Source: a virus
IMG/VR virus record: IMGVR_UViG_3300000151_000012
Location: 1-20,647 of that record
Reading direction: 5' to 3' (one strand)
DNA length: 20,647 bases
Each line of letters starts with the position of its first letter. Position 1 is the first letter of the stretch. The translations under genes were made by a program, and so were the position numbers. The notes below the pieces were generated by a model. That model was not told the origin of the DNA and ran no database searches. It saw nothing but the letters and a program-made list of their open reading frames with translations. Below, in pieces: positions 8,158 to 19,857 of the stretch.

Positions 8158-9273
8158 TTAAATAGCAGTATCGAGAGTGATGATGCCATGATCTTCGACA
8201 CCATTATCAATATTGGAATGGAACTGAGGCTTCAGCAGACCAAAGATCTTACTGGTAGAGATACCAGTCTGATTCTCATAGTCATACTTCTCCTCGTCCC
8301 ACGTAGCATCATTAATATCCGCCATCGCCAGAGCCTGAGCACCGCAGAACAGTACACGCTGACCAGCAACAGTACCGAATGTAGTATCCATGCCAGTACC
8401 ATCCAGATCACCAACAGTAGTAGCAAGCTGAGGAACATGGCGATACTCGTGAATCCACAGACCATCGACCAGTACAGAACTTGTACCCGCAAACAGCTCA
8501 TTCTTGGAGCCACGAACACCTGCATTGCGGACGTTAGAGATATAATCGCTATCCATCTTCAGTGCAGCCATACCCTGAGGACTCATGAACACATGATAAA
8601 CCTCTTCACCACCACCGCTCTTAATACCACGAACGTACTTGTCTTTAGCAAAAGCCTTAGCTTCAACCAACATCTTATAAGATGGAGTATCTGCAGCAGC
8701 CAGAGCCGTACCAGTAGCAACCAGACCGTTAGTAGCATCCCAGCGCATACCACGATTAGTGGACGGGGCGACTACATCTGATGCGAACTCCAACTGATTA
8801 AGGTTAGAGCCAGTACGTGCAACACCACGGTTAGTGTACCCATAAGGGATACCAGCCATTGTGAGGAATGCCAACTGATCGAGACGCTCACTCATCCAGT
8901 AACCCAACTGGTCGCGTCCATTCTCACGGAACTTAACGACTGTCTTCTGATCACTCATGCGACCGTGATTACGCACAGCATGACGGAGCTGATCAATAGT
9001 GATTGTCTGCGCACGATTCTGCAGCGCCTCTTCGTTCCCTTCCAGTGTGTTGTCTCCAACTACACCATCATTGGTCAGATCATTCAGCAACTGAATAACT
9101 GCTTTATCACCCTTCTCGGTCTTGGTCAGTTCCTTAATGTTCTGAACGAGAGCGTTAGAACCAGAACCGGCAAACTTGTTAATGAATGAATTATTACGCG
9201 CAACCTTCCACAGATCACGGGACCACACCTTCTTCTGAGCATCGCTCAAACCGGCAAAATTAGTAAGCGCCAT
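8158..9273 (-). CDS. Major capsid protein (N4 gp56 / DUF4043-like, HK97 fold)
   Basis: The chosen ATG at 9273 gives 371 residues and follows a strong CAGGAG site; the frame extends upstream only through a TTG at 9303, inside a terminator-like hairpin. The N-terminus (MALTNFAGLSDAQKKVWSRD) followed by FINKFAGSG, then TKTEKGDKAVI, DGVVGDNTLEGNEE and ITIDQLRHAVRNHGRM, matches the pattern I know from N4 gp56/DUF4043-type major capsid proteins. The C-terminal part includes the TWDEEKYDYENQ segment of that family. It would self-assemble on the scaffold to build the head. Position after the scaffold gene and before the decoration-like gene agrees. It is preceded by its own promoter-like element and a long structured leader. 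Confidence 0.88.
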   Translation of the reverse strand: MALTNFAGLSDAQKKVWSRDLWKVARNNSFINKFAGSGSNALVQNIKELTKTEKGDKAVIQLLNDLTNDGVVGDNTLEGNEEALQNRAQTITIDQLRHAVRNHGRMSDQKTVVKFRENGRDQLGYWMSERLDQLAFLTMAGIPYGYTNRGVARTGSNLNQLEFASDVVAPSTNRGMRWDATNGLVATGTALAAADTPSYKMLVEAKAFAKDKYVRGIKSGGGEEVYHVFMSPQGMAALKMDSDYISNVRNAGVRGSKNELFAGTSSVLVDGLWIHEYRHVPQLATTVGDLDGTGMDTTFGTVAGQRVLFCGAQALAMADINDATWDEEKYDYENQTGISTSKIFGLLKPQFHSNIDNGVEDHGIITLDTAI

Positions 9274-9295
9274 TTCGCTTCTCCTGAAAAATATT

Positions 9296-9323
9296 AAAAA
9301 CAACAGAGCAATTTAGCTCTGCT
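9296..9323 (-). terminator. Terminator-like hairpin just before capsid ribosome site
   Basis: On the minus strand an 8-bp stem (AGCAGAGC / GCTCTGTT, one G-T pair) with a six-base loop TAAATT is followed by GTTTTTAATATTTTT and then the capsid ribosome site. It has the layout of an intrinsic terminator, but it lies between the capsid promoter and the capsid gene, so it may act as an attenuator, as the end of the portal-scaffold transcript, or as a 5' stabilising hairpin. Confidence 0.55.
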
Positions 9324-9328
9324 AATAC
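9310..9328 (-). promoter_or_regulatory. Degraded fourth copy of the late palindromic element
   Basis: On the minus strand this reads GTATTAGC-AGA-GCTAAATT: the left half is identical to the three full copies and the right half differs at two bases. It overlaps the terminator-like hairpin before the capsid gene. No -35-like sequence is seen at the expected distance, so it may be a binding site or a relic. Confidence 0.4.
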
Positions 9329-9470
9329 TTCTCAGGATGGCGGCTCCTACTGATCACTTGTTTAACGCCCTTAAGGTATCCCGTCAGATCTAACGGGGAT
9401 TGCTTAGGCAATCGGTCTCCAGAGGCTCGACTCCGGTGCTTGCGAGATTGGGTACTACATTAATAGCTCA

Positions 9471-9498
9471 ATATTAGCATTGCTAATACGTGTGTCAA
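9471..9498 (-). promoter_or_regulatory. Capsid promoter with embedded palindrome
   Basis: On the minus strand TTGACA (9498-9493) is followed 16 bp later by TAATAT (9476-9471). The element GTATTAGC-AAT-GCTAATAT fills the spacer and includes the -10. It stands between scaffold and capsid genes and would start a transcript near 9464. The -35 matches the sigma70 consensus fully and the -10 matches in part, including the first two and last bases. Confidence 0.65.
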
Positions 9499-9511
9499 CA
9501 CTTATTTTAAT

Positions 9512-10489
9512 TTAAGCAACGTAATCTCCACGTAGGTCGTGATATGTCTCCGGCTCCTTGTCGATCATAGAATCGAACTGCGAATCTGTGAGCTTAGAGA
9601 TATCGACCACTACCCCTTTCCCATCAGAGGACCCAGAAATTCCACCGGCTTTGGGTGGCTGTTTATTAGACGCGGCCACCTTCTCTTTAACCTGGGTCTG
9701 TTCAACTTTAGGTTGGACTGGTTCAACCGCAGTCGTAGGTTCACCCAACGAAGTCTCACTCTCCAACAACTCAGGGTGGAATGCGCGGATAGCCGCATCC
9801 GCTGCCTTACCTAACGCATCCGAGCGGGTATAACCCGCAGACAGGTAGCCCTGCATGATAATATTAGTCTGCTCTACAAAAGCATTGTTGTAATCGGCAC
9901 TCTCTGGATTGTAGATATCGTAGGTGTCAATCATACCAGCGACAGATGTATCGAACTCACGCTGCTCTTTAGCCTGGGCCAGCGTATAACCTGTGACCTG
10001 AGTCTGTTCGAACTGGTACTGCTCACGTTCAGCATTACGGATCTCACCGCGTAACTGTTTTGCTTTAGTTTTATCTCCATCCAGAACAGCATCCATGTAC
10101 TGCTCTTCTTTGGACTCAAAATCAAACTCAGGGGCATTTGGTTTGTTTTCTTCAGCATGTTGTTTAGCAACTTGCGCTTCCAGTATGCGATTCTTCTCAA
10201 TGAGCACGTCCATACGATCTTTCGGGATCATATTTTCATCTGTACGTGTAGCGGGTGCTACTGCTGTCTCTGACTCCGACGCTGTCTCAGTCTCAGTAGC
10301 AGTCTCGGATTCCGCACTCGTTGTCTCTAGTACGGTCTCGGTCTCGGTCTCGGTCTCAGCTTCAGTGACTTCAGGCTCGGAGGTATCAGTTTCAACTGGT
10401 GTAGACTCTTCCTCAACCTCAGTATTAGGGATAAAGTCTCCACGGTCTTCCTCAGTGGTGTCGTCAACGGGGGTTTCTACAGGTTCCAT
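9512..10489 (-). CDS. Capsid scaffolding protein
   Basis: A 325-residue acidic protein with an excellent TAAGGAG ribosome site, 10 nt after the portal gene. The N-terminal 95 residues are low complexity, dominated by alternating E and T with some S and V, and encoded partly by four copies of a GGTCTC hexamer on the plus strand (10333-10357). A charged helical middle (about 115-180) and an alanine-rich helix (about 215-240) follow; the C-terminus ends with a compact DISKLTDSQFDSMIDKEPE segment that could bind the capsid. High charge, helicity, and the portal-scaffold-capsid gene order are the classic signs of a scaffold that guides head assembly and is then released. Sequence homology was not established. 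Confidence 0.75.
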   Translation of the reverse strand: MEPVETPVDDTTEEDRGDFIPNTEVEEESTPVETDTSEPEVTEAETETETETVLETTSAESETATETETASESETAVAPATRTDENMIPKDRMDVLIEKNRILEAQVAKQHAEENKPNAPEFDFESKEEQYMDAVLDGDKTKAKQLRGEIRNAEREQYQFEQTQVTGYTLAQAKEQREFDTSVAGMIDTYDIYNPESADYNNAFVEQTNIIMQGYLSAGYTRSDALGKAADAAIRAFHPELLESETSLGEPTTAVEPVQPKVEQTQVKEKVAASNKQPPKAGGISGSSDGKGVVVDISKLTDSQFDSMIDKEPETYHDLRGDYVA

Positions 10490-10499
10490 AATGTACTCC

Positions 10500-12596
10500 T
10501 TAATGGGTGATGGTGTTTGGTTTAGGTTTGAGTGATTCCAACGCTATCTTGGTCTGACTATCATGCTGCGCTTTACGCAGGTTAGTTTCGCCATGAATAT
10601 GGGCCAACTTCACCTTATTAGCTCGTTCTTCGCGCTTGTTAAGTAAATCCTGCTCCAGTTTACGGATCTCAAGATTGATATCGTCACCGTCTGATGTGAA
10701 GTCTTGAGCTTTAGCGGTACTTAACAGTGCCTGCGCTTTCTTGTTCTCAAGGTCAGCCTCGCTGTTAGCAATCTCCAGTTCAACCTGACGCATCTGTATC
10801 TGCTGCATCTGCTGCGCTAACTGCTGCTGCTCCTCACTCGGGGTGCCTTGACCTGTCATCTCACGCACACGTTCAGCTAACTCACGTTTACGTGACAGAT
10901 GTGAATACTCAATAACTGCGTCATCAGGAACCGCTACGCCTACGTTACGCAGGTTAAGCGCTTCTGCAAATTGGGACTCATCGAAGGTGTCTCTTGCAGG
11001 CTGTGTACTGATAACCACGTCGTACTCACCTACTGTGACGTTGTTACGAACCTCACCTGTTAGCGGATCAGGCACGTTGATGCCGATCATCTCGCCCTTC
11101 TCCTCAGGTCGAGCCATGTTCCCTTGTGTAATCTGAATGACACGGTGCTCAGTGTAGAAATTCTTAATTAAAGAGTGCATACGCCGAGCTAAAATGTGAC
11201 GAGTTCGCGCCAAATTATCTAAAGGTGTCTGAATCTGTACTGCACCGCGTTGAGTCTTAGCCTGTAACGCAACTCCCGATACCTCAGCACTCTCCTGACC
11301 CAACATGGCGTCAGAAATACCGCTTATTTCCTTAATATTATTAGCCGCTTTCATGCTAATACGGTCTAAACCGGTCGGAATCTGGTTAGGTTGACGTTTT
11401 AGCGGAGGCGTAGACGATTTAGCGTACTCGATCACCAAACCCGTCTCAGCACCCCTCTGTTCTAACTCCTCAACCGTCATATTAGTTAACGAACCCTGCT
11501 CCACGTCGTAACCGGAGTTAGATGTGGTGTTAACAATGTGCAGTTCTTGGGAACTGACCTTATTTAGCTGCTCCTGGGGGGATAGTAAATTCCGCACCAT
11601 GCCAAACGGCTTACCACGACGGAAAAATGGAAAATACGGGATAATTGTAAAGTCGTCGTAGATAGACCAGTCATCATGGAGCAAAATATGGTCACAAGAG
11701 ACCGTCCAACGCACCTTTTTCTCTGGCTTACGCTTAATTAACAACCCGTTGGTATCTGCGAACAACTTTAGTCGCTTAGGATCTGCACCGTCAGGTGCTC
11801 GCCGCTCATATGAGGTCTCCGGATCAACAAGATACTCCACTATTTTAATTTTACGACTCTGACGTTCGATTATTCGCACATTACGTATCGTGCGCTCGTC
11901 ACCTGAGTCCGAATCAGTCTCAAAATCCCCAGGTGTACCGAAATTCTGCTCACCAAACAAGATAGAGTCATCCCCGAACTCAGATCGAGTCGCTGCCACG
12001 TTACGTAAGTCCCGTGCCGCCTTCTTACCGTAAGTTAATTCAACCTCATCGAGACTCAACCAACGTGAAATAGTCACCTCATTCCATGTTTTGGGGTCAT
12101 ACTCCTTAGCGTCAGGATCAAGCACCACATCTAACGGATCTAACGCTATAATCTCGATCTCGCCCTCAACCTTATCGTCGAAATTCATACGAATCTCGTA
12201 AAACCCTCGATCTTGGATCAAACCATCTGCGAAAACCTGACTCTCTGCCCAATCAAGCTGATTGTCATCACTAATTTGCATCGCCAGCTTAGTAAGGGTA
12301 TCTGCCACGTCCTGTGTAGCGTCCCGTCGTGGTTTGAACACAATCTCACCGCGCGTACGACTCTGCTCACCTAAAACAGTGTTAACTGTAGTCAACACCG
12401 TGTTAATGGTGAGCGTTGGACGACCTTGTGCGTCCAATTTGTCTTTATCCGCCTGATCCCACTGCTCACCACGGTAAAAGTCGTCACATTTACGTGCGAT
12501 CTCTACCCAATCTAAGTGACCTGCGTCTCTTGCGCGAACGTAACGACGGAAATTGTGATCCGCTACCCGTCTGGAGTCTTCGATGGCTTTACTCAT
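10500..12596 (-). CDS. Portal protein (P22-type)
   Basis: This 698-residue protein is close to the length of P22 gp1. Features typical of the P22-like portal family are seen: an N-terminal ARKCDDFYRGEQWD segment (about residues 34-47), RPTLTINTVLTTVNTVLGEQ (about 63-82), and SEVSGVALQAKTQRG-like sequence in the stem region. The C-terminal 140 residues are helical and glutamine-rich (about 585-605), which fits a coiled 'barrel' inside the head. It forms the dodecameric ring through which DNA enters and leaves. There is no Shine-Dalgarno before the ATG at 12596; the ATGA overlaps the stop of a possible 17-codon leader ORF, and a -10-like TAATAT ends only 10 nt upstream. Either coupling or near-leaderless initiation would explain this. 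Confidence 0.9.
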   Translation of the reverse strand: MSKAIEDSRRVADHNFRRYVRARDAGHLDWVEIARKCDDFYRGEQWDQADKDKLDAQGRPTLTINTVLTTVNTVLGEQSRTRGEIVFKPRRDATQDVADTLTKLAMQISDDNQLDWAESQVFADGLIQDRGFYEIRMNFDDKVEGEIEIIALDPLDVVLDPDAKEYDPKTWNEVTISRWLSLDEVELTYGKKAARDLRNVAATRSEFGDDSILFGEQNFGTPGDFETDSDSGDERTIRNVRIIERQSRKIKIVEYLVDPETSYERRAPDGADPKRLKLFADTNGLLIKRKPEKKVRWTVSCDHILLHDDWSIYDDFTIIPYFPFFRRGKPFGMVRNLLSPQEQLNKVSSQELHIVNTTSNSGYDVEQGSLTNMTVEELEQRGAETGLVIEYAKSSTPPLKRQPNQIPTGLDRISMKAANNIKEISGISDAMLGQESAEVSGVALQAKTQRGAVQIQTPLDNLARTRHILARRMHSLIKNFYTEHRVIQITQGNMARPEEKGEMIGINVPDPLTGEVRNNVTVGEYDVVISTQPARDTFDESQFAEALNLRNVGVAVPDDAVIEYSHLSRKRELAERVREMTGQGTPSEEQQQLAQQMQQIQMRQVELEIANSEADLENKKAQALLSTAKAQDFTSDGDDINLEIRKLEQDLLNKREERANKVKLAHIHGETNLRKAQHDSQTKIALESLKPKPNTITH

Positions 12597-12646
12597 AAGA
12601 TAAGAATATTAGCACCGCTAATACAGTTGGGCAAATAAATATCCAT
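12593..12646 (-). CDS. Possible 17-codon leader ORF coupled to portal
   Basis: An ATG at 12646 follows a GAGGG site by 8 nt and opens a 17-residue frame (MDIYLPNCISGANILIL) whose TGA overlaps the portal ATG as ATGA. The palindromic promoter-like element lies within it. It may serve only to carry ribosomes to the portal start. There is no evidence that the peptide itself matters, and chance is possible. Confidence 0.35.
   Translation of the reverse strand: MDIYLPNCISGANILIL
12606..12634 (-). promoter_or_regulatory. Portal promoter with embedded palindrome
   Basis: On the minus strand TTGCCC (12634-12629) and TAATAT (12611-12606) are 17 bp apart, with GTATTAGC-GGT-GCTAATAT spanning the spacer end and -10. 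The -35 is weaker than at the other two sites. A transcript would begin about three bases before the portal ATG. Confidence 0.55.
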
Positions 12647-12668
12647 CTAGTCTTCCCTCGTTTTTAAA

Positions 12669-13643
12669 TTACGCCCTTAACCATGCCCACTCGTCCTCGT
12701 CATCACGAGCAATCTCGTCGTCGGTGCGAACACGTACACGCGACCCATCACCGGCAGTAACTACATGACCGTTACCATAGGTGAGATAAGAACCAGATTG
12801 TGTTGGCGTTGCGCCTAACTGCTGCTGCTGTAGTTGTGGCTGCTGCTGCTGTTGTTGTGGTTGTGGTTGTGGTTGTGGCTGTGGCTGTGGCTGTAGCTGT
12901 GGCTGTGGCTGTGGCTGTGGAGGTACACCTAACTGCCCTGATGGTCGTGGGTCAGCTACGTTAATATCCTGAGGCCGTACTGCGGTAGGGGTTACTCCAC
13001 TCGCCCCTAATCCAGCAGCCGCCTCAATTTGCTCACCCATTGGACGATTGTCAACACCCAGCCGCTCACTCTGGCCCTGGATTCTACGTCCGAGGCGTAA
13101 GGCTCGTTCACGTTCTAAATCCAATGTGTACGTTGATGGGTTACGCTCTATGTAAGTTGCTAGGGGTTGGGCTACGACATACTCAGGATCAATTAACGGA
13201 GTGGTAGGATTCATCGGTGCCTCACCTGTCGATGGCCCTACACCAGCAGAGATCATATCCGCCTGTGCCACACCAGGATGGTGCTGCATTGCGACCTCTT
13301 CCGCACGTGGTAGTAACCATGCGTCCATATCAACACCTGGGAATGGTTCAGTTAGACCTACCGACTCAGCGCGTATCGCTGGGTTAAACGACTCCGCTTG
13401 TGGTGCAGTATTATCAGCACGGATGTGTGTCGGTTGACCTAATGAATTAGCGGCTGCCCGTCGGGGCCCAAGATCCAGCATGAGTTCCTTGTTCTGCCGC
13501 AACGGATGCCCAGGATTACCCTGCACACTGTCCTCGTCAGTCACTGCGGTATTACCACCCAACTTCTGAGCCAGCATCTGCGCCTGATAGACATCTTCTA
13601 CTAATTTATACTCGTTGGTATCTCTATTCCACACTATGTACAT
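12669..13643 (-). CDS. Probable virion protein with PQ-rich tract (unknown)
   Basis: This 324-residue protein is not recognised. It has an AAAGGA ribosome site and begins 12 nt after the previous gene. The N-terminal 35 residues (MYIVWNRDTNEYKLVEDVYQ) look folded; the remainder is largely disordered, rich in P, A, G, N and R. Residues about 241-276 are a run of alternating P and Q followed by Q only, encoded by a hexanucleotide repeat at 12816-12923. The C-terminus is strongly acidic (DDEIARDDEDEW). Position between large terminase and portal suggests a virion or assembly protein; a role as an internal or ejection protein is possible but unsupported. Confidence 0.55.
   Translation of the reverse strand: MYIVWNRDTNEYKLVEDVYQAQMLAQKLGGNTAVTDEDSVQGNPGHPLRQNKELMLDLGPRRAAANSLGQPTHIRADNTAPQAESFNPAIRAESVGLTEPFPGVDMDAWLLPRAEEVAMQHHPGVAQADMISAGVGPSTGEAPMNPTTPLIDPEYVVAQPLATYIERNPSTYTLDLERERALRLGRRIQGQSERLGVDNRPMGEQIEAAAGLGASGVTPTAVRPQDINVADPRPSGQLGVPPQPQPQPQLQPQPQPQPQPQPQQQQQQPQLQQQQLGATPTQSGSYLTYGNGHVVTAGDGSRVRVRTDDEIARDDEDEWAWLRA
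12816..12923. repeat. Hexanucleotide repeat coding for PQ/Q tract
   Basis: On the plus strand the pattern is TGTGGY repeated with some changes, then GCTGCTG-type triplets. It lies wholly inside the 324-residue gene and codes for P-Q and Q runs. Copy-number changes of six bases would keep the frame, so it could vary in length without breaking the gene. Confidence 0.75.
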
Positions 13644-13654
13644 ATTTTAATCCT

Positions 13655-14995
13655 TTACTTAACCAGTCCAACTCGTTTACCAAGCTCCGAATGTATTGAA
13701 TACTCCTCCCTTATCGCCTTAATACCCTGTTCTATCTTATTGAGCTCCATCCCCGCCTCTCTGGCTTCCTCGGCATTGCCACTATGCAAGGGTCTTTGTC
13801 GCCATTCCTCTAGTATATTTGCCTTCATGGCTTCCCCTTTATCTAGCGTGCCCCTCAACTGCGCCTGTCTCGCCTGCCACATCTCATCCCCCTGTGCGGT
13901 AGCAAACGCGCGAGCTCTCTCACGGCGATAGGCATTGATATTTGGATCGTTACGCATGAGATTCTTCATCTCCTCCTTCAAATTCCGCAGACCGTTGGCG
14001 TTAGCGTCTCGCGCCTCCTCTAAACTTGGAGACCAACCTTGGCCATCAAACGAAGGATGTAGTTCATGTGTGTATAACTCCATCGAGCTGTACTGGTTGT
14101 TCAACTTCTCGTATTTAGCCTGATTTTCTGGGGTCATACGTGGGAAATCCCCTTGTCTTGCTTTACTAAAAGCCACATCCAAATCGGCGTTCAGTTTTTC
14201 GAACTCAGCCTTCTGCGCCGTGGACATCTTCCCCTGGTCCCTAATATGGGTCAACTCGTCATAGCGCGTTACCTTCTCTTTACCGAGATACGAGGCGATA
14301 TCATAGTCACCATTGAAATTATCCACCTTGGTGTAATATTTGGGATTTCCGCTCCGTTCTCGTAAAAACGCAGTCTCACTAGGGCGGGCGCCATGCGCCA
14401 AGTCGGCATCATATGTCGTATCAACCAGACCATCCCACCGATTCCCATTTTTACTGGCCACCCTTACCACATCGTCCGCCTTACTGACCACGGGCGCTAC
14501 CTCACCTAAAGCACGCATAGTAGCAATGGGTACGGTTGCCGCAGCAGCGGCCTTACCTGCGGAACCAAGAAACTCACGACGTGATGGGTTATGGGTCGAG
14601 TTAACAACCTTACCAACCGTGTCCCCTACCTTTTTACCAGTACCAATCACGCCCTGTGCGTAAGAGATAGGTCCCGGGATACCCGCACCCAACTGAGTCA
14701 CCATCCCGATGTTACGCAAACGAATATCAGCGCGGTCACTCAAATCGTTAGGTCTCGGGCGATCGTCCCAACCTATCATACGACCCAACCCTTGGGATGA
14801 TGCCTCAAACAGGGGCATCTCAAGTGTCTGATTTCGCACCATATGAGGGATGTCGGCAATAATCGCTGGGGATGTAATCCCCTCCGCTACCCCCAATTGT
14901 GCACGGTCCATTAGATAATCAGGGATATCTAAATATTTCTGAGCCATCCATTCCCAGTCGCTTACAGCTTTCGCCTCACCTAACCTACCTGCCAT
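13655..14995 (-). CDS. Unknown virion-like protein with internal Tat-like motif
   Basis: The ATG at 14995 (446 residues) is preferred over one at 15022 because a GAGG site lies 8 nt upstream and 15022 falls inside the terminase gene. The first 120 residues resemble an amphipathic, membrane-active or virion-internal segment. At residues 138-144 the sequence SRREFLG is followed by SAGKAAAAATVPIATMRAL, a twin-arginine motif plus a hydrophobic, alanine-rich stretch, but placed internally rather than at the N-terminus. The C-terminal half is highly charged and helical. I do not recognise the family. Its place between large terminase and portal points to a virion or ejection protein; it may enter or cross the membrane at infection. 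Function unknown. Confidence 0.6.
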   Translation of the reverse strand: MAGRLGEAKAVSDWEWMAQKYLDIPDYLMDRAQLGVAEGITSPAIIADIPHMVRNQTLEMPLFEASSQGLGRMIGWDDRPRPNDLSDRADIRLRNIGMVTQLGAGIPGPISYAQGVIGTGKKVGDTVGKVVNSTHNPSRREFLGSAGKAAAAATVPIATMRALGEVAPVVSKADDVVRVASKNGNRWDGLVDTTYDADLAHGARPSETAFLRERSGNPKYYTKVDNFNGDYDIASYLGKEKVTRYDELTHIRDQGKMSTAQKAEFEKLNADLDVAFSKARQGDFPRMTPENQAKYEKLNNQYSSMELYTHELHPSFDGQGWSPSLEEARDANANGLRNLKEEMKNLMRNDPNINAYRRERARAFATAQGDEMWQARQAQLRGTLDKGEAMKANILEEWRQRPLHSGNAEEAREAGMELNKIEQGIKAIREEYSIHSELGKRVGLVK

Positions 14996-15005
14996 TTCTT
15001 CACCC

Positions 15006-16613
15006 TCATGCTGACATCGCACTCTTACATTTATCGCCCATCGTATAACGGGTCAACTGGTCTCGCCAACTGGCCTGCTTCTTATGCGTAGCGATATGTG
15101 GCGACTGTAACTCCTCAAGGTGGATGCCTAAATACGCCAGCACGTCCACCACGTCATCATTTTTACCGAAGGGGAACTGTAACAGCTGAGTGGTTAAATA
15201 GTCCAACCAATGCGCCTCGCGTGGGAAATAGACCTTACCTTGAGCCATACGTCCCTGTAAGGATCTAGCCCTTAACGACTTATCACGTCGCCCAGGTAGC
15301 ATCTCCTGTACGTGCATACTGAACTGCTTACGCTCTCGGATACGCTTGTTAAGGAATGGACCAATTGCCATCTGCATATGAGTGCGCTCGATAAGAGTAG
15401 AGGCCGGTTTATACTGCTCATGCACGTCGATCATGCGCTCCACAATCTCCATCGCATCCCAGCGACCATACATGATATCCAGTAAGTACCAGTCCTCTGA
15501 CTTATCGATACCTACCACCGCACAAGCTGTGTAGTCGTTGGTCTCTTTTTGACCTAATGCTAAGTCCCAACTCGCATAAATTGTAAGTGGAGACGGTAAC
15601 GGGTGTGTGTTCTTATCGTAATATTTGAAATAGTGACGTTGGAAGTAAGCACCCTCGTCTGCAGTCGGTTTCTGCTGATACAATGCCGACCATGTACTCT
15701 CATTACCTGGAGCATTCTTAATTGCGTTCAACTGTTTCAAGTCATAGCGCTCAGGGTGTAACGCCTCACCCTGTTTACGATAATCCTCATCCTCAATAGC
15801 AATCGCAGGATACTCCACCACTTCCCACAGAGGTATATCGATACCTGCTTTAATTGCGTCCTCCTGCTGTAACCGTAGTCGCCCCGACAAATCGTCATGG
15901 TGCCAGCGTGTTTGAATAACCAGACAACCACCACCAGGTGCCAAACGAGTATACGCTGTGCTATTCCACCAGTTCCACGTACTCTCCCGATTGGTCTCAC
16001 TAACCGCGTCCTCCCAGTTACGCACAGGGTCGTCCACGATCAATAAGTGAGAACCGCGACCTGTAATACCACCACCTACACCGGCAGCTAAGAATCCGCC
16101 ATTACGGGTGGTGAGCCAATTCTCAACAGACTGACTGTCCTTATGCAACCGAGTCCCTTTAAACACATTCTGGTAACTTTGCTCTCGTAACAACTCACGG
16201 ATCTTACGAGAAAATGTCATAGACAATGATGCACTGTAGGAACAGGCTATCACCTCCATCTCTGGGTGATTACCTAAGAACCAAGCGGGGAACATAGTCG
16301 ATGCAAGGAGGCTCTTACCGTGACGAGGTGGGACTGCGATCATCAATCGAGGGGATTTTTTATCAATGATATCCCGCGCGAACTGTTCTAACCTCTGGCA
16401 TATGTCTTTGTGCACCCAACCAGGGAGATAGTCAGGCTGCATTCGCATAACAAACGGTAACAATCTACGTCGTGCGAGTACCCGACGAACTAACTCCTGT
16501 TCCTGAAGCTCTTTTTGAGAAACAGTAGCGGTTTTAGCCACCTTGCATTTCGTACAGTACTCATCCGTATCAGGTATTACTTTCCCACAGTCTGCGGCGC
16601 TACACAGTTTCAT
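15006..16613 (-). CDS. terL: Terminase large subunit
   Basis: This 535-residue DNA-packaging motor has an ATPase then a nuclease domain. Walker A (AVPPRHGKS, residues 93-101) and Walker B with catalytic carboxylates (LLIVDD, 190-195) are clear; the coupling-motif-like QTRWHHDDL lies at 234-242. The C-terminal nuclease has acidic residues at D350 (ASWDLALGQ), E409 and D487/D488, in the pattern of the TIGR01630 terminase C-terminal region. Unusually, residues 4-23 form a C-x4-C-x10-C-x2-C zinc-binding motif. The start is coupled to the small terminase stop (TAATG), and its TGA contributes to the ribosome site of the next gene. It cuts and pumps DNA into the head through the portal. Confidence 0.96.
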   Translation of the reverse strand: MKLCSAADCGKVIPDTDEYCTKCKVAKTATVSQKELQEQELVRRVLARRRLLPFVMRMQPDYLPGWVHKDICQRLEQFARDIIDKKSPRLMIAVPPRHGKSLLASTMFPAWFLGNHPEMEVIACSYSASLSMTFSRKIRELLREQSYQNVFKGTRLHKDSQSVENWLTTRNGGFLAAGVGGGITGRGSHLLIVDDPVRNWEDAVSETNRESTWNWWNSTAYTRLAPGGGCLVIQTRWHHDDLSGRLRLQQEDAIKAGIDIPLWEVVEYPAIAIEDEDYRKQGEALHPERYDLKQLNAIKNAPGNESTWSALYQQKPTADEGAYFQRHYFKYYDKNTHPLPSPLTIYASWDLALGQKETNDYTACAVVGIDKSEDWYLLDIMYGRWDAMEIVERMIDVHEQYKPASTLIERTHMQMAIGPFLNKRIRERKQFSMHVQEMLPGRRDKSLRARSLQGRMAQGKVYFPREAHWLDYLTTQLLQFPFGKNDDVVDVLAYLGIHLEELQSPHIATHKKQASWRDQLTRYTMGDKCKSAMSA

Positions 16614-17104
16614 TAGTGATGAGCATCAACGTTGTCATCAGATTCAGGTGTCAGTGTTAACTCATTACCACCGGACATCGCCAACAACTCATCATCACTC
16701 AAGGTCTCTAACTGCTCCACTTTAGTGTAATTGGCGTTAATGTTTACTGTCTTTTCTGGCTCATACACGCCGTGCATCTTCCCTATCTCTCGGATAGCTG
16801 TTATCTCTTCAGTAGCAGTAGCAGACTTACGATGTGCATCGAACAACATATTTGTTAGCAGACCTCGCGAGATCTTCACATGCACCTCATTCTCCATCTG
16901 ATAAAAATCAAGATGGGTTGCTATATCTACATCTTTCAACCATTTGGCACCCATATGCCTACTGATGCCTGCCGACTGACAAGCTAGAGCGGTATTAAAT
17001 GTATGTGCGAACGTATGAACGAACGCCTGCTGTTGGCGCGTAATAGTAGGCAATCCATGAATATACCGATCGTTATCCATCAATCTTATGGTCGTTGGGT
17101 CCAT
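16613..17104 (-). CDS. terS: Terminase small subunit
   Basis: This 163-residue protein precedes the large terminase gene and overlaps it by one base. Residues about 20-55 (TRQQQAFVHTFAHTFNTALA, then a SAGIS turn and SRHMGAKWLK) form a helix-turn-helix typical of small terminases that bind packaging sites. The C-terminal tail is acidic and likely contacts the large subunit. The ATG at 17104 has no Shine-Dalgarno and lies where transcription from the promoter at 17111-17139 would begin, so translation may be leaderless; M9 (17080) is another possible start, also without a good site. It may recognise the nearby iterons. Confidence 0.85.
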   Translation of the reverse strand: MDPTTIRLMDNDRYIHGLPTITRQQQAFVHTFAHTFNTALACQSAGISRHMGAKWLKDVDIATHLDFYQMENEVHVKISRGLLTNMLFDAHRKSATATEEITAIREIGKMHGVYEPEKTVNINANYTKVEQLETLSDDELLAMSGGNELTLTPESDDNVDAHH

Positions 17105-17110
17105 ACCTAT

Positions 17111-17139
17111 ATATTAGCTACGCTAATACTTTATGTCAA
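17111..17139 (-). promoter_or_regulatory. Small-terminase promoter with embedded palindrome
   Basis: On the minus strand TTGACA (17139-17134) is followed by exactly 17 bp and then TAATAT (17116-17111), a strong sigma70-like layout. The spacer and -10 contain GTATTAGC-GTA-GCTAATAT. The +1 base would fall on the A of the small terminase ATG. A protein bound to the palindrome would cover the -10 and block the promoter. Confidence 0.75.
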
Positions 17140-17148
17140 TTTCTAACC

Positions 17149-17235
17149 GGCAAATATTTTGGCAAATATTTTTGGTAAATATTTTGGCAAATATTTTTGG
17201 TAAATATTTTTGGTAAATATTTTGGCAAATATTTT
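17149..17235. repeat. Seven tandem AT-rich iterons
   Basis: Seven head-to-tail units of GGYAAATATTTT or GGYAAATATTTTT (12 or 13 bp) start at 17149, 17161, 17174, 17186, 17199, 17212 and 17224. Each centres on the palindrome AAATATTT. They lie 10 bp upstream of the small-terminase -35. They may be terminase or initiator binding sites, an easily melted origin element, or an A/T-rich promoter-upstream region. Confidence 0.85.
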
Positions 17236-17260
17236 GGACTTTGGACGCTTGTCTGTCCAT

Positions 17261-17423
17261 ACCGGTGCAGAAGACAAGAGGGGGTGATCCCGATTCGAAA
17301 CAGCAAAAGCGCTTGCGTTTTTCAATATATCGATATGGGACCCTAGTTCATCGCGGGTCTTGAAGGACACAAGCGCTTTTGCTGTTTCTAATTGGATCAC
17401 CCCCTCTTGTCTTCTGCACTGGT
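17261..17423. repeat. 163-bp imperfect inverted repeat
   Basis: The left arm (17261-17315) and right arm (17370-17423) are reverse complements except for one base near the outer end and a 6-7 bp internal block (about 17290-17296 against 17390-17395). The 54-bp centre has ATATCGATAT and a short GACCC/GGGTC hairpin. The DNA could extrude as a large cruciform, or its transcript could fold into a long duplex. No target-site duplication was seen at its ends. Confidence 0.85.
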
Positions 17424-17528: not shown

Positions 17529-17762
17529 ATGAGAAACATCATGGAAATAGCAGAAGAGTTCGCTCCGACGCATCTAGTAGCAATCGAGGTTATGAGCCAT
17601 TCTCGGTTGTATCAAGACCCATTGCATTTTTGGATGGGTGAGGAGTTCGAACTAAGTGAAGAGCACTACGATGACTTGGTTTTCAACATCGAAGAAGGAA
17701 AACGTCGTAATGATGGTTTCCAGGTATATTCATCCATCTCATTAAACGGAGCAGTAAAATGA
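17529..17762 (+). CDS. Cassette gene A, first copy (unknown small acidic protein)
   Basis: A 77-residue acidic protein with an AGGAG ribosome site. I recognise no family. It starts MRNIMEIAEEFAPTHLVAIE and contains YQDPL, FWMGEEFE and a well-kept NIEEGKRRNDGFQVYS segment near the C-terminus. No membrane segment, signal peptide or catalytic motif is seen. Its TGA overlaps the ATG of gene B (ATGA), so the two are probably made together and may interact. It is about 83% identical to the second copy, 18941-19153, over 70 residues. The final seven residues are absent from that copy because of an earlier stop. Position suggests an early phage gene. Confidence 0.8.
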   Translation: MRNIMEIAEEFAPTHLVAIEVMSHSRLYQDPLHFWMGEEFELSEEHYDDLVFNIEEGKRRNDGFQVYSSISLNGAVK

Positions 17763-18442
17763 ACAAGTACGTCACGAAGGATTTAATCACTGCACAGGTT
17801 GTTAAAGAAACAGGCTGGAGCTTGTTGAGATCAGCATACATGAATTGCTGGGGAGCGTGTAACTCTCTGGCCGCAAAGGAGATCGATACTGCAGACGGCG
17901 GTATTGATGCTTACGAGCGCGCGGAGAATGAGGAGGTAATGAGAAAGCAAGATAAAGAGTTCTCATTCGCGACCGGGCTTGAAACCCAAGTCGATCCTAT
18001 AGTCACAGCCCGCCAATGGATGGGAGTGATAGAGGTCCTGTACCCACTGATGGACGCAAAGGATCGCTTACATCCATCGGACTTCTTAAAGGAACGGCTT
18101 AATGAAAAGCCCGAGTTCGAGATGTCTACGCCAGACATTGAGATGCGGATGAACGCCACGGGGTTATCTCAAGCGGAAATACTCGCTAAGTTCAGGGAAA
18201 ACTCCTTAGTGGCTTGGAATAAGCAGTCTGCGCAACGGGAACGGGCTGCAGATATCTTTAAAGTCATAGGCGCGGTCGATGATGCACCTCAAGCGCTAAT
18301 TGAAAAAATAGAGCAGTTCGCTACTAAGCGAGCAAAACAAGCATCATCGGACAACATGGTAGAGCGAGGCAATGAAAGCCTGGCGAATATCGCGTTGATT
18401 AAGCAGGAGCTCGCGGAGGCGGAAGCGATTATAACCCACTAA
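17759..18442 (+). CDS. Cassette gene B, first copy (unknown helical protein)
   Basis: A 227-residue, mostly helical protein with no recognised family. Strongly kept segments between copies are VVKETGWSLLRSAYMNCWGA (about 14-33), DKEFSFATGLE, ARQWMGV, DAKDRLHP, AWNKQSAQRERAA and DNMVERGNESLANIALIKQE near the C-terminus. Only two cysteines are present, C30 and C34, and both fall in the conserved NCWGAC segment; C34 is in both copies as C30 is. No membrane segment or nucleotide-binding motif is visible. The start overlaps the stop of gene A, and a strong terminator follows at 18463. About 80% identity to 19171-19857 shows a recent-to-moderate duplication with purifying selection likely. Confidence 0.82.
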   Translation: MNKYVTKDLITAQVVKETGWSLLRSAYMNCWGACNSLAAKEIDTADGGIDAYERAENEEVMRKQDKEFSFATGLETQVDPIVTARQWMGVIEVLYPLMDAKDRLHPSDFLKERLNEKPEFEMSTPDIEMRMNATGLSQAEILAKFRENSLVAWNKQSAQRERAADIFKVIGAVDDAPQALIEKIEQFATKRAKQASSDNMVERGNESLANIALIKQELAEAEAIITH

Positions 18443-18940: not shown

Positions 18941-19153
18941 ATGAAAAATATCATGGAAATAGCCGACGAGTTCGCTCCGACGCATCTAATAGCAATCGAA
19001 GTAATGAGTCAATGTCGGTTGTATCAAGACCCACTACAGTTTTGGATGGGAGAGGAGTTCGAAGCAACTGAAGACCACTACAACGACGTGGTTTTCAATA
19101 TTGAAGAAGGAAAACGTCGTAATGATGGTTTCCAGGTGTATTCAGCAATTTAA
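18941..19153 (+). CDS. Cassette gene A, second copy (unknown small acidic protein)
   Basis: A 70-residue protein with an AGGAG site, about 83% identical to the first copy. It is shorter because the codon aligned with TCA of the first copy is TAA, which removes the last seven residues and also the ATGA overlap with gene B; the next gene now begins 17 nt later with its own GGAG site. The NIEEGKRRNDGFQVYS segment is intact and most substitutions are conservative, so it is probably still functional. It gains a cysteine at residue 25 (QCRLYQ). No family is recognised. Confidence 0.78.
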   Translation: MKNIMEIADEFAPTHLIAIEVMSQCRLYQDPLQFWMGEEFEATEDHYNDVVFNIEEGKRRNDGFQVYSAI

Positions 19154-19170
19154 CTAAACGGAGTAAGACA

Positions 19171-19857
19171 ATGAGTAAATATACAACCAAAAACCTCATC
19201 ACTGAACAAGTGGTTAAGGAAACAGGGTGGAGTCTGTTGCGTTCGGCGTACATGAATTGTTGGGGGGCGTGTAGCTCCCTAGCGACAAAGGAGATCGATA
19301 CTACAGACGGTGGGATCGATGCGTATAACAAAGCAGAAGACGAAGAAATAATGCGAACCCAAGACAAGGAATTCTCATTCGCAACGGGACTTGAATCACA
19401 AGTGGACCCCATAATCGCAGCCCGCCAATGGATGGGAGTGGTAGAGACGCTATATCCGATGATGGACGCAAAGGATCGATTGCATCCCAGAGAGTTTATC
19501 CAAGAACGGCTTAATGAAAAACCCGACTTCGAGATGTCTGAAGCGGACATTGCGGTGAGGATGAGCGCCACTGGGTTAACGAAGGAGGAAATACTCTCTA
19601 AGTTTAAGGAGAACTCATTGATTGCTTGGAATAAGCAGTCTGCACAACGGGAACGTGCTGCAGAGATCTTTAAGACCATAGGAGCAGTGGAGGATGCACC
19701 TCAAGCTCTAATCGAAAAAATAGAGCAATTTGCTGCGAAGAGAGCAAAACAGGCCGCAACTGACAACATGGTAGAGCGGGGTAATGAAAGCCTGGCAAAC
19801 ATCGCGTTGATTAAACAGGAGCTCGCTGCGGCAGAAGAAGCAATCGTCACCCACTAA
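19171..19857 (+). CDS. Cassette gene B, second copy (unknown helical protein)
   Basis: A 228-residue protein about 80% identical to the first copy along its whole length, with one extra residue near the C-terminus (AEEAIVTH). Substitutions are spread out and mostly conservative, while long blocks such as GWSLLRSAYMNCWGAC and SAQRERAA are unchanged, so both copies look functional. Divergent stretches are near residues 45-65 and 120-145. It has its own ribosome site (CGGAG). No terminator follows; a small cysteine-rich gene begins 12 nt later, suggesting a longer transcript than that of the first copy. Function unknown. Confidence 0.82.
   Translation: MSKYTTKNLITEQVVKETGWSLLRSAYMNCWGACSSLATKEIDTTDGGIDAYNKAEDEEIMRTQDKEFSFATGLESQVDPIIAARQWMGVVETLYPMMDAKDRLHPREFIQERLNEKPDFEMSEADIAVRMSATGLTKEEILSKFKENSLIAWNKQSAQRERAAEIFKTIGAVEDAPQALIEKIEQFAAKRAKQAATDNMVERGNESLANIALIKQELAAAEEAIVTH

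Follow-up and report, generated by a model that had tools for sequence, protein, structure and literature searches.

The CI repressor of phage lambda binds partly symmetric 17-bp operators (OL/OR) that begin with TA and overlap promoter elements; these operators are clustered at two early promoters, and the late genes are controlled indirectly via Q. A dispersed arrangement has been described for phage P1, in which 22 operators across the genome allow the C1 repressor to repress lytic genes (PMC8546580). The operator sequence in P1, ATTGCTCTAATAAATTT, lacks symmetry, and the late genes are reached via the activator Lpa (PMC8546580). Dispersed sites are also used by the repressor of the Cluster A mycobacteriophage L5, with more than 20 operators or stoperators whose motifs vary between groups, giving rise to immunity groups (PMC9283540, PMC6550527). 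In L5 a monomer recognises each asymmetric 13-mer site, and many of these sites lie in short intergenic spaces and stop elongation (PMC9283540, PMC6550527).

Here we analysed a 20,647-base virus record, IMGVR_UViG_3300000151_000012, a 20.6-kb fragment that we refer to as the window. Three copies of one palindrome in this fragment are, with a probability that we put at roughly 0.87, dispersed operators of the phage's own lambda-CI-like prophage (immunity) repressor, a reading of the sequence that would make the window phage temperate.

Three copies of one palindrome precede head and packaging genes

The window carries on its minus strand a large terminase subunit (15006..16613, Terminase_6N/6C), a P22-type portal protein (10500..12596, P22_portal E 9e-111) and a major capsid protein (MCP, 8158..9273) of the Phage_capsid_3 family. 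The small terminase subunit (TerS, 16613..17104, minus strand) is assigned from weak matches (Terminase_2 E 3e-4, below the Pfam cut-off, and phrog_51 E 1.5e-5), and a putative scaffolding protein (9512..10489, minus strand), for which there was no family match, from its position between portal and capsid. A near-identity search of the window among named phages gave no match.

The initial annotation had described exact copies of GTATTAGC-N3-GCTAATAT just upstream of head and packaging genes, and we recovered all three on the minus strand, at 17111-17129, 12606-12624 and 9471-9489. The arms are identical at the small-terminase, portal and capsid sites (TATTAGC-N3-GCTAATA), while the flanks vary. 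Rather than being scattered at random or inside genes, the window copies are all intergenic (3/3), with the start codons of TerS, portal and MCP lying 6, 9 and 197 bp downstream, respectively. The chance expectation is 0.17 matches at ≤3 mismatches, and the observed number was reached in 0/100 shuffles. Furthermore, when all 7-bp arms with at least one G/C and all spacers of 0-12 were taken in, the most copies of any one palindrome was 3 in the window and 1 in each of 60 dinucleotide shuffles. The three palindromes are real and non-random.

The element had been read as a directional 19-mer, of which the palindrome stands but the direction does not. The outermost G of the 19-mer is variable in relatives (A 25, G 14, T 6, C 3), and the apparent directionality is due solely to the final T of the -10 box (38/48 sites). 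Because this outermost G varies, the predicted functional core is the symmetric 17-mer, located at 17112-17128, 12607-12623 and 9472-9488.

Other repeats are found upstream of TerS. About seven repeats of 12-13 bp (GGCAAATATTTT) form an AT-rich array 5′ of TerS at 17149-17237, a possible origin or packaging signal; at the equivalent place, contig L141 has a different, 21-bp-spaced array. The region between the divergent operons (17261-17423) contains nested inverted repeats with arms of 30 bp (97%) and 36 bp (86%). Beyond it, a two-gene cassette encoding 77-aa and 227-aa proteins (81% identical) is tandemly duplicated at 17529-18442 and 18941-19857, and the two copies are separated by a 21-bp perfect tandem repeat (x 4).

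The palindrome overlies sigma70-like promoters

At each site the palindrome spans the spacer and the -10 box of a sigma70-like promoter, with the hexamers as originally claimed. The TerS promoter (17139-17111, minus strand) reads TTGACA-17-TAATAT, with the -35 at 17134-17139 and the -10 at 17111-17116, and the portal promoter (12634-12606, minus strand) reads TTGCCC-17-TAATAT, with the -35 at 12629-12634 and the -10 at 12606-12611. The MCP promoter (9498-9471, minus strand) is TTGACA-16-TAATAT, with the -35 at 9493-9498 and the -10 at 9471-9476; a shifted -10, AATATT, gives a spacer of 17. Two of these three promoters are the best-scoring sigma70-like sites in the 12.6 kb scanned. Among 165 oriented sites with TAATAT in the right arm, TTG is found at exactly 17 bp in 38, compared with 0-16 at other spacings. 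Sigma70-like promoters with 17-bp spacing are as expected of repressed, not activated, promoters. In agreement with the earlier proposal, we infer that one dimeric regulator would occupy the -10 and spacer, both of which the palindrome overlies, and we annotate the three copies as predicted operators of the TerS, portal and MCP promoters.

The ATG of TerS (17104) is 6 nt past the -10 box and that of the portal gene (12596) is 9 nt past it, and start codons 5-9 nt past the -10 are also found in relatives (L015 1996, L086 7379, L107 537, L122 6571). In several lineages, the homology of a small conserved gene that precedes TerS in relatives begins at the first residues. Together, these two observations suggest that TerS, portal and this small gene are expressed from leaderless transcripts. 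MCP, unlike TerS and portal, has a leader of about 190 nt with its own ribosome site.

The MCP leader (9270-9464, minus strand) folds unusually well (z -4.0). A long hairpin in it masks the ribosome site of MCP, and a terminator-like stem at 9301-9324 is part of this hairpin. L141 shares parts of the leader with the window, CTCGCAAGCAC..GAGTCGAGCCTC and TAGGAGCCGCCATCCT. We do not claim the leader as a conserved structured RNA, with a mean column identity across relatives of only 49%, and an Rfam search found no RNA family in the window. A degraded fourth copy had been placed in this leader, at 9310-9328 (minus strand). The match holds, with 2 mismatches, but it is without a promoter and forms the 5′ arm of the long terminator-like, SD-covering RNA hairpin. 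It may nevertheless be a decayed second operator, because clade B relatives have a good second copy at the equivalent place, just 5′ of the MCP ribosome site (L155 13629, L161 3281).

The element precedes both early and late genes in related phages

The same sites as in the window are present in near-identical contigs (L005, L006/L136 and L007). In relatives with ~50-57% identical terminase or portal, the element is found at MCP and at TerS or the small gene before TerS: L015, L018, L019, L031, L034 and L039 have TATTAG(C/T)-N3-(A/G)CTAATA both in front of the small gene adjoining TerS and at the promoter of MCP, and several of L150-L156, L161 and L164 have mostly TATAAGC-type sites, several of them within the MCP leader. 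Among terminase-fetched loci outside the window's own species, the element was confined to the six loci of the G001 group.

Whole records contain more copies. We found 8 sites at ≤2 mismatches in G001 (61.8 kb), 16 sites in G017 (61.3 kb; degenerate pattern, ≤1 mismatch) and 5-7 exact copies in each of eight further repressor-bearing records, compared with 0-1 for reversed-pattern controls in whole records. The sites of G001 and G017 precede early operons (helicase, DNA polymerase and a primase-like gene), late operons (TerS, MCP), endolysin, and the excisionase/repressor region beside the integrase. Many copies of one sequence are dispersed at lytic-gene promoters, 3 in the window and 5-16 in most whole relatives.

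These early-gene sites bear on the initial interpretation of the element as a dedicated late regulon, in which a regulator of late genes, for instance a phage activator, switches on head and packaging genes only. Such activators are common among phages, and all three window copies precede head or packaging genes. We reject this reading because in relatives the element also precedes early helicase and polymerase genes, so that comparison of related phages supports conservation at TerS and MCP but not restriction to late genes. Furthermore, copies are found close to the lysogeny cassette, and the regulator linked to the element (see below) is a CI-type prophage repressor encoded beside the integrase. 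The position of the element is also not that of an activator site, as it lies between -35 and -10 boxes at the optimal 17-bp spacing, whereas spacer-binding activators (MerR type) go with 19-20-bp spacers. Accordingly, we consider a late-gene activator very unlikely.

Several relatives count against the operator reading. Neither the element nor an integrase was found in L141, L146 and L262, the closest structural relatives of the window, all partial contigs. Repressor-bearing records of 50-55 kb have one exact copy in three cases and none in two others, and in G006 and G008, which lack the repressor, a few sites match at 1-2 mismatches. The MCP promoter of L141 (15825-15851), like that of L143, instead bears the inverted repeat ACTACTAT-N11-ATAGTAGT, which may be an operator belonging to some other immunity type.

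The palindrome is linked to a family of CI-like repressors

One of the G001 sites (56065) lies 135 bp 5′ of a gene for a 204-aa HTH protein, which adjoins genes for an excisionase-like protein and a tyrosine integrase. The association of this putative repressor with the palindrome was found in both directions. From DNA to protein, 8 contigs fetched with the palindrome only encode homologs of the G001 repressor, and 7/8 also have an integrase match; 10 other palindrome-fetched contigs encode homologs of the window's head genes. From protein to DNA, we counted all perfect 7-N3-7 palindromes in 80 loci (~1.1 Mb) fetched by repressor alignment alone, and found that TATTAGC is the commonest (35 copies, 28 loci), followed by TATTAGT (19), with the next at 7. 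The pattern has 106 sites in these loci (1.08 Mb) versus 0 in one shuffle.

Furthermore, the repressor subgroups are distinguished by the first residues of the recognition helix, and the repeated palindrome nearby changes with them: half-sites are mostly TATTAG for (T/S)QGA, TATAAG for TQP, TAATAC for TQGG and TAATAG for DLEW-TQGA, the smaller subgroups being represented by a handful of loci each. The repressors of G001 and L116 belong to the TQGA subgroup and that of G017 to TQP. The half-sites of every subgroup begin with TA, and the glutamines that align with lambda Q33 and Q44 are invariant in the family. Contacts in the lambda complex include those of Q44 with the A at position 2 and of S45 with the fourth base pair. 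The agreement of the TA start and the invariant glutamines with these contacts is suggestive only.

Sequence (phmmer 1e-4 against lambda CI) and predicted fold (AlphaFold pLDDT 91.6; 1.2 A over 68 residues to 1lli) point to a lambda-CI-like N-terminal domain in the repressor of the relatives. The C-terminal part is a beta domain with no confident full-length match; the invariant positions of the family are all N-terminal, and the autocleavage serine is not among them. A tblastn search with the L116 repressor against named phages returned only distant CI-type matches and no close cultivated relative, and a profile search of the genome contigs with the repressor alignment gave one weak match among the matches listed, with no host assigned.

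The element also follows the temperate gene set. G001, G017, G003 and G027 encode an integrase as well as the repressor, and neither was found in G004-G008 or, by tblastn, in Aeromonas phage phiA008, a head-gene relative at greater distance that also has no site at ≤2 mismatches; overall, genomes that carry the element also carry both genes, and both are missing from head-gene relatives in which matches are absent or only weak and scattered. In the window itself no integrase was recognised and no repressor gene is present, as the initial annotation had stated for the regulator. The operator reading places the repressor outside the 20.6-kb fragment. The window and its near-identical contigs end before any repressor or integrase, which counts against this reading, and we found no longer contig from this phage that would extend the window on either side. 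Some repressor homologs (for example L234 and L244) with no exact operator sequence nearby, and the lack of an operator right at the start of most repressor genes, count against it as well. Because just 3 sites, each with 1 mismatch, fall within 320 bp 5′ of a repressor start, we do not claim repressor autoregulation.

The two-way linkage also bears on whether the palindrome could be the box of a host regulator, tying the late genes of the phage to host physiology. Phages do borrow host boxes, for example those of LexA and Fur, but here the linkage is to one phage-encoded repressor family, the half-sites track the repressor subgroup, and no exact copy occurs in head-gene relatives that lack the repressor. 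We therefore regard a host box as slightly less probable still than a late-gene activator. Least credible of all is the copying of promoter modules within the genome with a palindrome incidental to the -10 box: TAATAT is indeed in all three window copies, but the flanks differ although both arms are conserved, and the left arm, which has no promoter role, remains symmetric in a 17-bp register across divergent phages.

Discussion

Under the operator reading, TATTAGC-N3-GCTAATA would be the 17-bp operator of a prophage repressor of about 190 aa with a lambda-CI-like N-terminal DNA-binding domain, encoded beside the integrase. We infer that the window's own phage carries this protein and that it dimerises, binds the palindromes and represses. 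One subunit would contact each half-site, so that the dimer covers the spacer and -10 box and denies the host sigma70 RNA polymerase an otherwise strong promoter. With the same operator at several operons, both early replication and late head and packaging, a single protein could silence the prophage, and induction would release all operator-bearing promoters.

Our analysis starts from a palindrome in raw sequence and arrives at a repressor-operator pair that can be tested, in an uncultured lineage of phages. It predicts that these phages are temperate and offers a DNA signature, a 17-bp palindrome over TAATAT, for the temperate members of the lineage. Furthermore, the half-sites, paired with their recognition helices, form natural data on how DNA is recognised specifically and how immunity groups evolve. 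On balance, though with appreciably less confidence than for the operators themselves, we favour a broader picture: an uncultured temperate lineage (P22-type portal, Phage_capsid_3) would carry symmetric operators, one per early, packaging, portal or capsid promoter, with its late genes silenced directly without a late activator, its repressors and operators co-diversified into specificity groups, and some of its transcripts leaderless.

Among known systems, lambda CI offers the closest protein and site: the predicted operators are likewise symmetric 17-bp sites over promoter elements, and the repressor linked to them in relatives has a lambda-repressor-like HTH. Unlike in lambda, single predicted operators are placed on many promoters, head genes included; there is no operator cluster between divergent repressor and early promoters, with few sites near the repressor; and the C-terminal part of the linked family shows no invariant catalytic serine such as an autocleavable domain would have. 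The use of one repressor with many, here predicted, genome-wide operators resembles P1 C1, whereas in the window phage the operator is symmetric and sits on the late promoters themselves. As for L5, the sites are dispersed and their motif varies by group, but they are symmetric 17-bp palindromes, presumably bound by a dimer and mostly at initiation sites, rather than asymmetric 13-mers bound by a monomer. The data are best explained by an arrangement of the same kind as P1 C1 and the L5 stoperators, from which it differs in that symmetric operators are built into the late head-gene promoters.
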